Positions 50,643-56,474 of a DNA stretch of 64,000 nt are shown here, piece after piece. The notes under the pieces are model-generated. The model was not told the origin of the DNA. It was given only the letters and a program-made list of their open reading frames with translations, and did no database searches. Position 1 is the stretch's first letter. Every line of letters starts with the position of its first letter. The stretch is from Micromonospora echinaurantiaca (GTDB lineage: Bacteria; Actinomycetota; Actinomycetes; Mycobacteriales; Micromonosporaceae), in assembly GCF_900090235.1 (NCBI RefSeq), contig NZ_LT607750.1, positions 3,959,001-4,023,000 on the forward strand, read 5' to 3'. The translations under genes were made by a program, and so were the position numbers.

Positions 50643-52535
50643 TCAGGCCTCCTTGGCACGCGGGTTGCGGGGCGTGGCCTGCTGGGCCCGGGCCGGCAGT
50701 GCCCGGCCCAGTCCGCTGACCCGCGGGGACAGGAACGCCCGGGTCCGGGCGAACATCGTCATGATCGGGTGGCGGAAGAGGAAGACCACGACCAGGTCCA
50801 GCACGGTGGCCAGACCCAGGGCGAACGCGAAGCCCTTCACCGTGCCGACCGAGACGATGTAGAGCACCACGGCCGACATGAGGGTGATGGCGTTCGCCGA
50901 GATGATCGTCCGCCGGGCCCGGATCCAGGCGCGCGGCACGGCGCTGCGCGGGCTGCGCCCCTCCCGGATCTCGTCCTTGAGCCGCTCGAAGTAGATGACG
51001 AACGAGTCCGCCGCCACACCGAGTGAGACGATCATGCCCGCGATGCCGGCGAGGGTGAGGGTGAAGCCGATCTGCCGGCCGAGCACCACCAGCGCGCCGA
51101 AGACCAGCAGCGCCGAGAGGATCAGGCTCAGGAAGATCACCGAGCCGAGCAGGCGGTAGTAGAAGAACGAGTAGATGATGACCAGCAGCATGCCGATACC
51201 CGCCGCGAGCAGACCGGCCCGCAGGTGGCTGGCGCCCAGGGTGGCGGTGACGTTCTGCTGCTCCTGCGCCTCGAAGGTCACCGGCAGCGCGCCGTAGCGC
51301 AGCTGGCCGGCCAGCTCGCTGGCGTCCTTCTGGTTGAAGCTGCCGGTGATCTGCGAGTTGCCGGTCAGCACGCCCTGGATCTCCGGCGAGGAGACGATCT
51401 CGTTGTCCAGTACCACGGCGACCCGGCACTTGCCGTCCTGGCCCAGCGCGGTCGCGTCGCAGGCGCCGCCCTCATTGTTGAACGCCTCGCGGGTGAGGTT
51501 CGTCCACTTCTCCTGACCGTCGCCGGTGAAGTCGAGGCTGACCACCCAGGCGCTGGTCTGGTCGAGCACCGCGTTGGCGTCGCTGACGTCGGTGCCGAGC
51601 ACCTTCGCCACGTCGAGCAGGTACTTCGCGGCGCCGTCCTCACAGGCCACGACCTGCTGGTTCGGGTCGGAGATCGACGCCGGCGGCCGGTCGTCGAGCT
51701 GGGCGCAGCTGATCTGCGGCACGTTGAACTGCATGGTCGCCGGCAGCACCGCGACCTCGCGTGGGGTGAGCGAGGCGAACGGCTTGAGCTTCTCGGCCAG
51801 CGACGGGTCGCTGCTCAGGTCGGCCGGGCCCTGCAGGCCGCTCGCGGCGGCCCAGGCGGCGGCGCCGACCTTCTGCTCGACCGCCTTGCGCTGCTCCTCG
51901 ATGCCCTGCGGCACCGGGGCGGCGCTGGCGCTCGGCGACGGCGCGGCGGCGCTCGGCGAGGCGGACGGGGTGGCGCTCGGCGCCGGGGCGGAGCCGCCCT
52001 GGCCACCGGCGGTCGGTGAGGCGGTCGCGGCCGGCGCGCTGGCCGACGGGGTCGGCGCGGCGCTGCCGGACGGCGCCGGGCTGGCGGTGCCCGACGGGGT
52101 CGGGGTGGCCGCCGGCGCGGTGACCGCGCCGCTGCCGTCGGCGGCCTTCAACAGCTTGCGGAAGCGCAGCTCGGCCGCGCTGCCGACCTCGGTCAGGTCC
52201 CGGTTCTCACCGGGCAGGGAGATCACGATGTTCCGGTTGCCCTCGGTGACCACCTCGGCCTCGGCCACGCCGAAGGCGTTGACCCGGCTCTCGATGATCT
52301 GGCGGGCCTCCTCCAGGTTCTCCGCCGTCGGGGCCCGGCCGTCGACGGTGTTGGTCGCCTCCAGCGTCAGCCGGGTGCCGCCGACCAGGTCCAAACCGAG
52401 CCGGGGCTCGAGCCGGTCCTTCAAGCCGCCGCTGGCGCCGCCCGAGAAGAACACCAGTAGGTAGAGGACGACGAAGATGAGCCCGAGCACGGCCAACTGC
52501 CGTCCGGGGCGCATCTGTCCCTGAGGTGGTGCCAC
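50643..52535 (-). CDS. secD: Protein translocase subunit SecD
   Basis: 630 residues from the GTG at 52535. First helix LAVLGLIFVVLYLLVFF, then LDLVGGTRLTLEA, the P1 head/base domain, and five C-terminal helices with GIAGMIVSLGVAADSFVIYFERLKDE, the SecD signature. Between about residues 145 and 210 there is an Ala/Pro/Ser-rich insert absent from short homologues, so the domain is split by a likely flexible loop on the outer face. Operon yajC-secD-secF. Confidence 0.95.
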   Translation of the reverse strand: MAPPQGQMRPGRQLAVLGLIFVVLYLLVFFSGGASGGLKDRLEPRLGLDLVGGTRLTLEATNTVDGRAPTAENLEEARQIIESRVNAFGVAEAEVVTEGNRNIVISLPGENRDLTEVGSAAELRFRKLLKAADGSGAVTAPAATPTPSGTASPAPSGSAAPTPSASAPAATASPTAGGQGGSAPAPSATPSASPSAAAPSPSASAAPVPQGIEEQRKAVEQKVGAAAWAAASGLQGPADLSSDPSLAEKLKPFASLTPREVAVLPATMQFNVPQISCAQLDDRPPASISDPNQQVVACEDGAAKYLLDVAKVLGTDVSDANAVLDQTSAWVVSLDFTGDGQEKWTNLTREAFNNEGGACDATALGQDGKCRVAVVLDNEIVSSPEIQGVLTGNSQITGSFNQKDASELAGQLRYGALPVTFEAQEQQNVTATLGASHLRAGLLAAGIGMLLVIIYSFFYYRLLGSVIFLSLILSALLVFGALVVLGRQIGFTLTLAGIAGMIVSLGVAADSFVIYFERLKDEIREGRSPRSAVPRAWIRARRTIISANAITLMSAVVLYIVSVGTVKGFAFALGLATVLDLVVVFLFRHPIMTMFARTRAFLSPRVSGLGRALPARAQQATPRNPRAKEA

Positions 52536-52791
52536 GGCTGTCCTGTCTCCCTGTAACGGTCGCGCCGCCGGGCTGCGGCGGCGGGTGTCGGGCCGGGGTT
52601 TCCGGCCGACGGGCCTGAGGGGTCGGCACCGGGCCGACACGCCGCCGCTGCGGCCGGCGGGCGCCGACCGGTCACGGGTACGTGCCGACGCCCGGCGTCG
52701 ACCCGACTATCCAGTTTTCACGTCACGTCCGCCGACCACCCGGCGTGGCGCACCGGCGTGCGGCGGCCCCACCCCGGACGGGTGGACGACC
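52536..52791. other. Gap between yajC and secD
   Basis: 256 non-coding bases. No clear hairpin or canonical promoter was found apart from the weak AGGA site before secD. Overlapping frames are compositional. Confidence 0.3.
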
Positions 52792-53151
52792 TCACTCCTT
52801 GACGGCGTCCGCGTCCTCGACGACTTCCTCGGCCGGGCGCTCCGCCTGGGTGACCACCCGGGCGATCGCCGGGCGGGCGTACCGGGTCTGCACACCGGGT
52901 GCGACCTCCAGCAGGACGGTGTCGTCGTCCACGCCGGTGACCGTGCCGTAGAGCCCGCCGATGGTGACCACCTCGTCCCCCGGGGCGAGGGCACGCTGCA
53001 TCGCCTCCGCCTCGCGGCGGCGCTTCTGCTGAGGGCGGATCATCATGAAGTACATGACGCCGAAGAGCAGGACGATCATCAGGATCGGCGTGAGACCGCC
53101 GGCACCTCCGCCGCCCTGTGCTGCATAAAGCACGGTTACAGACCTTCCCAT
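52792..53151 (-). CDS. yajC: Preprotein translocase subunit YajC
   Basis: 119 residues from the ATG at 53151 (GGAGG four bases before); a GTG at 53133 is an alternative. One helix PILMIVLLFGVMYFMMIRPQQKRR, where the MIRPQQKR end is diagnostic, then a small beta domain GDEVVTIGGLYGTVTGVDDDTVLLEV and an acidic tail. It joins SecDF. It is located between ruvB and secD, a classic order. Confidence 0.94.
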   Translation of the reverse strand: MGRSVTVLYAAQGGGGAGGLTPILMIVLLFGVMYFMMIRPQQKRRREAEAMQRALAPGDEVVTIGGLYGTVTGVDDDTVLLEVAPGVQTRYARPAIARVVTQAERPAEEVVEDADAVKE

Positions 53152-53272
53152 TGGCCTCCGACTCGGCACGAGGGGCGCCGGAGCGGAGGCGGATTCTCAC
53201 GTCCTGTACAGACCGCGGCGAGTCTAATCCCTGCACCTGGGAACGCCGAATGCGGCACAGATCACGTTCGCA

Positions 53273-55351
53273 TCACGGCTGATCGGGCTGCACGGAGAAC
53301 AGATCGGGCGCGGGAGGGGCATCGGTGCCAAATGTACCATTCGGCGGCGTACGCCCCAGATGCCGCCAGGCAGCCTCGGTGGCCACCCGCCCCCGGGGCG
53401 TACGGGCCAGCAGGCCGGCCCGCACCAGGAACGGCTCGCACACCTCCTCGACCGTGTCCGGCTGCTCCCCCACCGCCACGGCCAGGGTCGACAGGCCGAC
53501 CGGGCCGCCCCGGAACGAGTCGACCAGCGCGGTCAGCACCGCCCGGTCCAGCCGGTCCAGGCCGAGCGCGTCGACGTCGTACACGGTCAGCGCCGCCCGC
53601 GCGGTCTCCAGGTTGACCACACCGTCGGCCCGGACCTCGGCGAAGTCGCGGACCCGCCGCAGCAGCCGGTTGGCGATCCGGGGGGTGCCCCGGGACCGGC
53701 CAGCGATCTCGGCGGCGCCGTCGTCGGTGATCGGCACGCCGAGGATCCGCGCCGAGCGGTGCAGCAGCGTCTCCAGGTCCGTTGGGGAGTAGAAGTCCAG
53801 GTGGGCGACGAAGCCGAAGCGGTCCCGCATCGGCCCGGTCAGCAGGCCGGACCGGGTGGTCGCGCCGACCAGGGTGAACGGCTCGACGTCCAGCGGGATG
53901 GCGGTGGCGCCCGGGCCCTTGCCGACCACCACGTCGACCCGGAAGTCCTCCATCGCGCTGTAGAGCAGTTCCTCGGCCGGCTTGGCGATCCGGTGAATCT
54001 CGTCGATGAAGAGCACGTCACCCTCGGCGAGGCTGGTCAGGATCGCCGCCAGGTCGCCCGAACGCTCGATCGCCGGGCCGCTGGTCACCCGGATGCCCGA
54101 GCCCAACTCGGCGGCGACGATGTTGGCCAGGGTCGTGTTGTGGACGACGAAATCGTTGACGGTGAAGGTGTGGTCCCCGTCGACCGTCAGACACCGGCAC
54201 TCGTGCAGACCGGCGGGCTCCACAGCCGTCACCCGGTCGGCCGCCAACCGCTCCTCGAAGCGGTCGCGGCGCGGACCCCATTCGGCGAGTCGCATGCCCC
54301 GCGCGCCGATGACCGTGACCCGTTCGACGAACCGGGCCACATCGTCCTGACTGGTGATGCTCAGCCGCCAGGACTCGTGCGGCCTGCCCTGGTAGCGGCC
54401 ACGCTTGAGCTTGAGCCGGGACTGGACGCCCAGCCGGAGCAGCAGGTGCTGGACGTCCTCGAGCAGGCCGCGCGACACGCTGTAGTACTCGACGACCACG
54501 TCGTAGCGGTCACGTCCGCGCCGGCTCACCGTGCCGTCACAGGCGAAGTACGCGCCGAGGAATGCCCCGACCTGCCAGCTGTCGCCGCGGTAAACGAAGT
54601 CCGGTACCCGCTTCTGCCAGGCGTTCTTGTCGATCAGTTGGTGTTCCGTGAGCCATGACCGGAGTCCGGACACCCGAACCAGAGAGCTGCGGGGACTGTT
54701 CGGCCTGGTGGTGTGCGCATGGCCAAGCCGGTCGCACACCGCCCGGAAGTCGGCGAGGACGGCCTCGTCGCCGCCCGTGAAGGTCACCTGGTTGGTCGTG
54801 CAGCCATCCCCGATGAGGTATCCGGCCAGCCGGAACTCATCGACGTCCTCGGTTCCGCCGGAGATCAGCTCCGGACACAGCACGTTCGCAACGGAGTCAC
54901 GTTCCGTGAGGTCGCCTGCCTTGACCCAGCCGTCGGGCGTCCAGAAGGGGTGGTCCGGCGCGGCAACGACCTCCCGTCCGCTGACTGTCCGAATCCGAAC
55001 CGAATCCAGTTCGCCCTGTTCATGCACGGCCGTCACCGTGGCACCCTCGCCCGTCCGGGTGATGACCCGGTCGCCCACGACGATGTCGCCCAGCCGACGA
55101 CGGGTACCGTCCTCGAGCAGTACCAGGGCATCGACTGAGACCGGTTTACCCAGGCCAGGCGGCCCCGACAGGAGGATGTGGTCCGGCGGGCTGCCGCGGC
55201 GCATCGCGCCCTTGAGCAGCAGGTCGAGCTGGTCACGCACCCGGTGCTGGGCGATGAACTCGTCCAGCCGCTTCGGCCGGACGCTGGCCTCCGCGTCCCG
55301 TTCGGCGTCGTGAACGTACGCCGAGACCAGGCCGCCGTCGGGACCGGTCAT
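53273..55351 (-). CDS. ruvB: Holliday junction branch-migration ATPase RuvB, interrupted by an intein
   Basis: 692-residue precursor in one open frame. Residues 1-69 and 406-692 join to a normal 356-residue RuvB: N-part ends GPPGLGK and C-part begins [12 protein letters not shown], together the Walker A motif GPPGLGKTT. Walker B is LFIDEIHRI, sensor 1 GATTRSG, and the C-terminal winged helix is present. Without splicing the P-loop is split, so ATPase activity should need intein removal. It is coupled to ruvA by a four-base overlap (ATGA) and followed by yajC. Confidence 0.96.
54137..55144 (-). mobile_element. RuvB intein with LAGLIDADG homing endonuclease, class 3-like
   Basis: 336 residues (precursor 70-405). 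Block A is [20 protein letters not shown], starting with Pro rather than Cys/Ser. Block B is AAPDHPFW. The endonuclease has two DOD motifs, LAGYLIGDG (precursor 176-184) and LGAYFACDG (265-273). Blocks F/G are [20 protein letters not shown] followed by Thr +1. Trp 137, Cys 387 and Thr 406 fit the WCT set of class 3 inteins. Base composition is less GC-rich than the flanks: 37 of 60 in the line at 54781 against 48 of 60 at 53641. Confidence 0.93.
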
Positions 55352-55950
55352 CGGGTCCGGCCCAGCAGCCGGATGGCCTGCTTGAGCAGGACCGGCACGG
55401 GCGGGGTGTCCCCGTCCACGGTCTCCGCCACCGCGGCCACCGCCTGGTCGGCCTGGGCGGCCGTCCAGCCGAGCCCGACCAGCGCCTGGCGGACCTGCTC
55501 GGGCCAGGCCCCGCCGGTCACCCCGGCCGCGCCGTCGGCGCCGACCGGCACCGGACCGATCCGGTCGCGCAGCTCCAGCACCAGGCGTTCGGCGCCCTTC
55601 TTGCCGATGCCGGGCACCCGGGTCAGCGCGGCCGTGTCGGCGTTGGCGATGGCCTTGCGGACCGCGTCCGGGGTGTGCACGGCGAGCACCGCCTGGGCCA
55701 GCCGGGGGCCGACCCCGCTGGCCGTCTGCAACAGCTCGAACAGCTGCTTGGCGTCGTCGTCGGCGAAGCCGTAGAGGGTGAGCGAATCCTCCCGGACGAC
55801 CAGGCTGGTGGCCAGCCGGGCCGGCTGACCGACCCGCAGGTCGGCGATCGTGGCCGGGGCGCAGTGCACCGCCAGCCCGACCCCGCCGACCTCGATCACC
55901 GCCTGATCCGGACCGGTCGCGGTCACCACGCCGCGCACGCTGGCAATCAT
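55348..55950 (-). CDS. ruvA: Holliday junction DNA-binding protein RuvA
   Basis: 200 residues from the ATG at 55950. Domain I OB fold [25 protein letters not shown]; domain II helix-hairpin-helix motifs [13 protein letters not shown] and [16 protein letters not shown]; domain III at the C-terminus for RuvB contact ([15 protein letters not shown]). Overlaps ruvC (ATGA) and ruvB (ATGA), so ruvCAB is one unit. There is no sign of an intein here. Confidence 0.96.
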
Positions 55951-56474
55951 CTGCCTCCTCCTCGTCGTACCCGGTCGGCCGCGGCGGCCAGCTTGGAGCG
56001 CGTACCGCCGCGCCACACGTGGCAGATGGCCAGGGCGAGGGCGTCGGCGGCGTCGGCCGGCCGGGGCGGCTCGGGCAGCCGCAGCAGCCGGGTGACCATG
56101 GCCGTCATCTGCGCCTTGTCGGCCTGACCGGAACCGGTCACCGCGGCCTTCACCTCGCTCGGGGTGTACGTCTGCACCGGCAACCCGGCGCGCGCCCCGG
56201 CCAGCACGGCGATCCCGCTCGCCTGTGCGGTGCCCATCACCGTGCGGACGTTGTGCTGGCTGAACACCCGCTCCACGGCGACGCTGTCCGGCCGGTGCTC
56301 GGTAACCAGGTCGGTCAGCGAGCGGTCCAGGTGCAGCAGGCGCACCGGCAGCTCGTCGGCTGGGTCGGTGTAGACGACGTAGTAGGCGACCAGGGTGCAC
56401 TGCCGCCCGGGCAGCCCCTCGACCACGCCGACCCCGCACCGGGTCAGCCCCGGGTCGACGCCCAGCACCCGCAC
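55947..56474 (-). CDS. ruvC: Holliday junction endonuclease RuvC
   Basis: 175 residues. RNase H-like fold with the four acidic residues in [13 protein letters not shown] (Asp 7), [10 protein letters not shown] (Glu) and [11 protein letters not shown] (Asp pair). Cuts junctions symmetrically after RuvAB migration. First gene of ruvCAB. Confidence 0.96.

Follow-up and report, generated by a model that had tools for sequence, protein, structure and literature searches.

A LAGLIDADG intein in the RuvB P-loop of Micromonospora echinaurantiaca, likely spliced by a class-3-type route, and its non-WCT relatives in phage terminases

Introduction

Class 3 inteins are recognised by the WCT (Trp-Cys-Thr) signature. 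These residues are a Trp at position 12 of block B (B:12), a Cys at F:4 and a Thr at G:5 (PMC5222942; PMC3196547). A triad of Cys, His and Thr has been put forward as the class 3 catalytic centre (PMC7664689). The class has also been defined operationally as inteins with Cys F:4 and no N-terminal Cys, and in a set of 1701 inteins the deviations at the Trp and the Thr amount to 6.1% and 4.6%, respectively (PMC7891396). The split AceL NrdHF intein, which has an MCT triplet, follows a class 3 route in the absence of the Trp, and replacement of its Thr G:5 by Ala slows splicing roughly tenfold without abolishing it (PMC7891396). The large terminase subunit (TerL) inteins of phiCbK-like Caulobacter phages start with Pro, and the authors who describe them cite a functional precedent for an intein with an N-terminal Pro (PMC3556154). 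RuvB has previously been listed among the eubacterial hosts of inteins (PMC5874633). Here we describe the RuvB intein of Micromonospora echinaurantiaca, found in a window of 64,000 nucleotides (contig NZ_LT607750.1 of assembly GCF_900090235.1, positions 3,959,001 to 4,023,000), which an initial annotation of the letters had read as a class 3 intein. It is probably an active LAGLIDADG intein in the RuvB P-loop, which would splice by a class-3-type route on an active site that differs from WCT.

Results and discussion

Anatomy of the RuvB intein

The precursor gene and its parts are located in the window as follows.

53273..55351, reverse strand: ruvB-intein precursor gene, 692 residues
55145..55351, reverse strand: N-extein of RuvB, residues 1-69
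55145..55165, reverse strand: first part of Walker A, GPPGLGK (residues 63-69); the following RuvB residue, Thr406, comes only beyond the intein
54137..55144, reverse strand: intein, 336 residues (70-405)
55142..55144, reverse strand: Pro70, residue 1 of the intein (A:1), not a nucleophile; Pro in 65 of 69 distinct relatives
54941..54979, reverse strand: block B, with Ala131 (B:7), His134 (B:10), Phe136 (B:12) and Trp137 (B:13)
54803..54829, reverse strand: LAGLIDADG motif 1, LAGYLIGDG, residues 175-183
54533..54559, reverse strand: LAGLIDADG motif 2, LGAYFACDG, residues 265-273
54155..54199, reverse strand: block F, with Cys385 (F:2) and Cys387 (F:4, proposed first nucleophile)
54134..54154, reverse strand: block G and +1, with Val403 (G:5), His404 (G:6), Asn405 (G:7) and Thr406 (+1)
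53276..54136, reverse strand: C-extein of RuvB, residues 406-692

The intein splits the Walker A motif between Lys69 and Thr406, and its position there, as a single-frame insert of 336 residues, is confirmed to the exact base. Both LAGLIDADG motifs announced for the insert were located within the HINT domain, the arrangement of a putative LAGLIDADG intein-endonuclease, while the Pfam Intein_splicing model scores below its cut-off. Block B reads APDHPFW locally and the C-terminal end reads FVVHN/T. The gene is single-copy in the complete genome and the intein-bearing copy is thus the sole ruvB. Since 336 residues separate the Lys of Walker A from its Thr in the precursor, RuvB ATPase activity should need splicing, as the initial annotation supposed.

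Class assignment

The triplet of the window intein is Phe-Cys-Val (FCV) and not WCT, formed by Phe136 at B:12, Cys387 at F:4 and Val403 at G:5. In an alignment to gp41-1 with an engineered WCT (PDB 6riz), the Trp of 6riz falls over Phe136 and its Cys over Cys387, and the panel alignment likewise puts Cys387 at F:4, where the initial annotation had placed it. The Trp137 that had been taken as the class 3 Trp is at B:13, one position beyond the class 3 site, and a Trp at B:13 also occurs in all nine RtcB inteins of the panel, which have Cys1, and in one Cys1 phage portal intein. Thr406, the third residue of the proposed match, is indeed the +1 residue, but the Thr of WCT sits at G:5, which is Val403 here. 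The window intein therefore shares with WCT class 3 inteins the lack of Cys, Ser or Thr at residue 1, the Cys F:4 and the Ser or Thr at +1, and departs from them at Trp B:12 and Thr G:5, so the alignment to known class 3 inteins that had been suggested as a check supports the Cys and not the other two positions. The operational definition, no N-terminal Cys plus Cys F:4 (PMC7891396), includes it, and FCV inteins may be among the Trp and Thr deviants counted in that work. Taken together, a class 3 mechanism is likely for the RuvB intein on sequence grounds, whereas the WCT signature itself is absent.

The intein does not fit class 1, as residue 1 is Pro70, which agrees with the earlier claim of a missing N-terminal nucleophile; the assisting Thr B:7 of class 1 is also replaced, by Ala131. 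The signature of class 2 (KlbA), Cys+1, Ser G:6 and Asp F:4, is absent, these positions being Thr406, His404 and Cys387.

Conservation in the FCV lineage

The residues of the active site are conserved in 69 distinct FCV inteins, which comprise 27 RuvB alleles of Micromonosporaceae, the remainder being from phages or metagenome-assembled genomes (MAGs) and mostly in terminases. Residue 1 is Pro in 65, Asp in three and Glu in one. Val G:5 and Asn G:7 are invariant (69/69), G:6 is His in 64, Lys in three, Ser in one and Arg in one, and +1 is Ser in 37 and Thr in 32. Cys F:4 is present in 69/69, a count that is partly circular because the patterns of the first viral scan contained block F, and Cys F:2 is present in 65/69. 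That scan gave 55 loci, of which 39 were read and 33 entered the panel, after omission of the near-copies L143, L155 and L195, the Cys1 row L192 and the shifted-site loci L167 and L176; five of the 16 remaining loci, incomplete ones, were inspected, and Cys F:4 is present in the four of them that extend as far as block F. The second tree has 44 FCV rows, with Phe (40), Tyr (two), Leu (one) or Val (one) at B:12 and Ala (38), His (four) or Glu (two) at B:7. The nine WCT rows have Trp B:12, with Asp (seven), Cys (one) or Gly (one) at B:7, and the 28 class 1 rows have Cys1, with Thr (24) or Ser (four) at B:7. Lys at -1 is invariant across the 43-row alignment.

A control scan used the N-terminal part only, with the single block B pattern HPF[LW]TxxGW, which fixes B:12 as Phe. 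Its counts refer to the best 80 of the 352 loci that passed, with copies and loci of the same contig included. Residue 1 is Pro, Asp, Glu or Gln in 68 of these 80, and Cys F:4 is present in all 67 of these nucleophile-less loci whose sequence extends into block F (the contig of L304 ends earlier); none of the 67 has Thr at G:5, and two (L305, L318) have Ile there. The other 12 loci have Cys at or near the start, with Thr (ten), Ser (one) or Asn (one) at B:7, and Cys F:4 was found in none of the seven that are readable. Thr or Ser at B:7 occurs in none of the 68 nucleophile-less loci and in 28/28 of the Cys1 class 1 panel, a loss that is expected if the N-S shift of class 1 is gone.

The two shifted-site inteins of viral contigs, L167 and L176, are located a few residues upstream (PPG/P...KN/CMKS or SMKS), with Cys as the +1 residue in L167, and both also carry Cys F:4 and Val G:5.

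Sequence evidence for probable splicing

Compared with the window allele, the ratio of nonsynonymous to synonymous substitution rates (dN/dS) ranges from 0.071 to 0.182 in the intein and from 0.023 to 0.134 in the C-extein over 35 pairwise comparisons with other RuvB loci; these values are rough, as ten of the comparisons repeat an allele and the intein dS is 0.3-1.2. The splicing residues are intact in 27/27 distinct RuvB alleles, including one without a working endonuclease. This one (L051, Actinoplanes) is a mini-intein of 221 residues that has a degraded endonuclease and keeps every splicing residue; no second RuvB gene was matched in that genome. Phage FCV mini-inteins have 157 and 137 residues, and in TerL inteins of the phiCbK type the LAGLIDADG acids are gone while the splicing blocks persist, as judged by eye. 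The mini-inteins, the relatives with dead endonucleases and the dN/dS of about 0.1 argue for working splicing and point to selection on it. The 157-residue phage mini-intein (L187/L270) has an amplified SAGR repeat immediately before block B.

Proposed mechanism and rival explanations

We infer each chemical step of the splicing route; what the analysis shows is the anatomy, the conservation, the set of relatives and a predicted fold. Cys387 would attack the Lys69-Pro70 bond, aided by His134, to give a block F thioester branch, from which the N-extein would be transferred to Thr406. Asn405 would then cyclise with the aid of His404, and an O-N shift would ligate Lys69 to Thr406 and rebuild GPPGLGKTT. 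Phe136 would sit in the core where class 3 inteins have their Trp, and His134 would act without the backing of a Thr G:5.

A class 2-like route, in which Thr406 itself attacks the Lys69-Pro70 bond and Cys387 has only an assisting part, like the Asp F:4 of classes 1 and 2, would agree with the non-nucleophilic residue 1, with F:4 as an assisting position in both classes (PMC4031507) and with G:5 and B:12 residues that resemble class 1. Known class 2 inteins, however, have Cys+1, Ser G:6 and Asp F:4 (PMC4031507), in place of Thr, His and Cys, and such a route, which we consider distinctly unlikely, leaves the invariance of Cys F:4 (69/69) unexplained; moreover, a class 3 intein with a mutated Cys F:4 made no use of its natural Cys+1 (PMC5222942). 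The neighbouring Cys385 could be the first nucleophile, or form a relay with Cys387 in the CxC pair, and a Cys F:2 is indeed found in 65/69 relatives and in none of the WCT and class 1 rows of the panel, but the four relatives that lack it (L026, L165, L174, L152) retain Cys F:4, which makes this role very unlikely. That the intein is inactive or only cleaves, leaving the strain without functional RuvB, is a highly improbable reading: the case for splicing is drawn from sequence and the Pfam splicing model stays under its cut-off, yet dN/dS is about 0.1, all 27 RuvB alleles keep their splicing residues and ruvB is single-copy.

Conditional splicing, which would be compatible with the class-3-type route, supposes that a Cys385-Cys387 disulfide blocks the reaction under oxidation and gates branch migration. 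In the class 3 DnaB intein of M. smegmatis, splicing is blocked by a disulfide that involves the catalytic Cys (PMC6195587), and the CxC pair occurs in 65/69 relatives. This pair is, however, conserved to the same degree in the phage relatives, where a redox gate would make no obvious sense, and 137/151 Micromonospora genomes live without the intein, so we regard this gating as unlikely; conditional branch migration, as proposed in the initial annotation, found no support and stands as speculation, with the CxC pair as one hint.

To return to the class-3-type route on a non-WCT site, a further and tentative possibility, which we hold as doubtful, is that FCV inteins are a separate mechanistic kind, with block F Cys chemistry on a class 1-like scaffold, without Trp B:12, Thr G:5 and Asp B:7, and perhaps with Cys385 tuning or redox-locking Cys387 through the CxC pair. 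If so, the class 3 route would have had an independent origin, or WCT would have arisen in phages from an FCV ancestor. FCV inteins form a large lineage under selection that has Cys F:4 and lacks Trp B:12 and Thr G:5. If they splice, the third member of the triad would be dispensable in nature, the lineage would bear on a single or repeated origin of class 3 chemistry, and it would be a source of mini-inteins of 137-221 residues that tolerate Pro at the junction.

Comparison with known inteins

The phiCbK-like TerL inteins (PMC3556154) and those of IMG/VR phage contigs share with the RuvB intein Pro1, Lys at -1, Ser or Thr at +1, Phe B:12, the CxC with Cys F:4 and Val G:5, and differ from it in the host gene and in a +1 residue that is usually Ser; the phiCbK type also differs by its lost LAGLIDADG acids. 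The N-terminal Pro pointed out in the initial annotation is thus present but not novel. The terminase intein of an Acidobacteria MAG (L049) has 46% identity, both LAGLIDADG acids, Pro1, CxC and FVVHN, and differs in its phylum and in its host gene, a PHROG terminase large subunit (E 1.9e-46).

WCT class 3 inteins, such as mycobacterial DnaB-1, which occupies the same P-loop place, and that of the DnaB of the same genome (L121), have in common with the RuvB intein the lack of Cys1, the Cys F:4 and the Ser or Thr at +1. They differ by Trp B:12, Thr G:5, Asp B:7 (7/9) and a longer block F-G; in the RuvB intein the three residues are Phe, Val and Ala, and the length resembles that of class 1. AceL NrdHF, with its demonstrated class 3 mechanism, shares with FCV the lack of Trp B:12 and differs in being split, in its Thr G:5 and in having no His G:6 (PMC7891396). 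Class 1 P-loop inteins (DnaB Walker A L211, L214 and L223; TerL L084 and L192) share the site after the Walker A Lys and, mostly, a similar B:12 and block F length, but have Cys1 and Thr or Ser B:7, and no Cys F:4; in L192, which follows a comparable terminase-like Walker A, F:4 reads Asn by eye.

The DnaB intein of M. echinaurantiaca (genome positions 6299500-6306000) is a WCT class 3 intein of 472 residues in Walker A, with Ala1, EHLW, RCVTV and PTHN/S, so this genome holds two nucleophile-less P-loop inteins, in RuvB and DnaB. Some actinobacterial DnaB genes (L122, L134 and relatives) combine a class 3 intein in Walker A with a class 1 intein at RESG/C...HN/SIEQD. In Pseudomonas phage PS119XW (L086), a 'DarB-like antirestriction' gene has a WCT-type intein that seemingly starts with Ser at GTGK/S.

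Distribution and host genes

The RuvB intein is present in 14 of 151 Micromonospora genomes, the other 137 being without it, and in nine of 150 genomes of a Micromonosporaceae sample (E 1e-60), in which loci L225-L229 were left out of the reading. Among the named carriers are Micromonospora, Plantactinospora, Asanoa and Actinoplanes/Paractinoplanes. Of 296 genomes sampled across the phylum, the window genome alone gave a match of this kind (E 3e-148; runner-up 1.7e-34), and the inteins read from other genomes of that sample are class 1 or WCT. The ruvB gene is present in all 41 Micromonospora genomes checked, five with the intein and 36 without, and the 25 intein-less loci that were read all have an uninterrupted GPPGLGKT[T/S]LANIV. 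One intein-less Micromonospora ruvB (G015:C79:108616-109476) is reported to have a single in-frame TAG.

Most members of the lineage reside in phage terminases, where the insertion site usually follows a Walker A Lys. The closest relatives outside RuvB are the Acidobacteria MAG terminase intein and those of IMG/VR phage contigs, with up to 47% identity over the full length, while the terminase inteins of Caulobacter and Brevundimonas phages have 28-35% identity to the RuvB intein. The flanks of ten non-RuvB FCV loci, searched with Pfam and PHROGs, are terminase large subunit in eight and DnaB-like helicase in two. This kind of intein is already known, and the part for which no description was found in the open-licence literature, supplements apart, is FCV as a coherent terminase-centred lineage.

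The two helicase loci (L156, L170) are FCV inteins of phage DnaB-like helicases, a gene that elsewhere hosts Walker A inteins of WCT class 3 or class 1. A second terminase site of FCV inteins has a P-loop-like DPGxAGK or EPG (L144; by eye L148, L307-L309, L317, L325), and in the viral contig of L144 it lies past the ATPase part of the terminase, by profile position. In the viral contigs of L297 and L318, the FCV intein is followed by the end of a second, class 1-like intein (VYDIQV...VHN/C).

Origin and history

Distances between inteins correlate with those between exteins (Mantel r 0.77) and the two trees are consistent in their genus groups, so the intein is old in the ruvB of Micromonosporaceae, where empty alleles are many; it has been lost or has spread incompletely, and has moved to some extent within the genus. 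The GC content of the intein is lower than that of its flanks, as the initial annotation noted, but the recent lateral arrival drawn from it is not favoured by trees that agree at genus level. The first splicing-domain tree places the RuvB inteins together with the Acidobacteria terminase intein and one phage mini-intein (support 84/93), which fits a jump from the P-loop of a phage terminase to that of RuvB. The class 1 panel falls on one side (94/94 with 27 rows; 97/93 with 28 rows) and WCT on one side (100/98), with FCV between them, and FCV as a single clade is not rejected (approximately unbiased test, p-AU 0.49).

Around ruvB (window positions 50643-56474), the open reading frames identified by eye, all on the reverse strand, are secD-like, yajC-like, ruvB, ruvA-like and ruvC-like.
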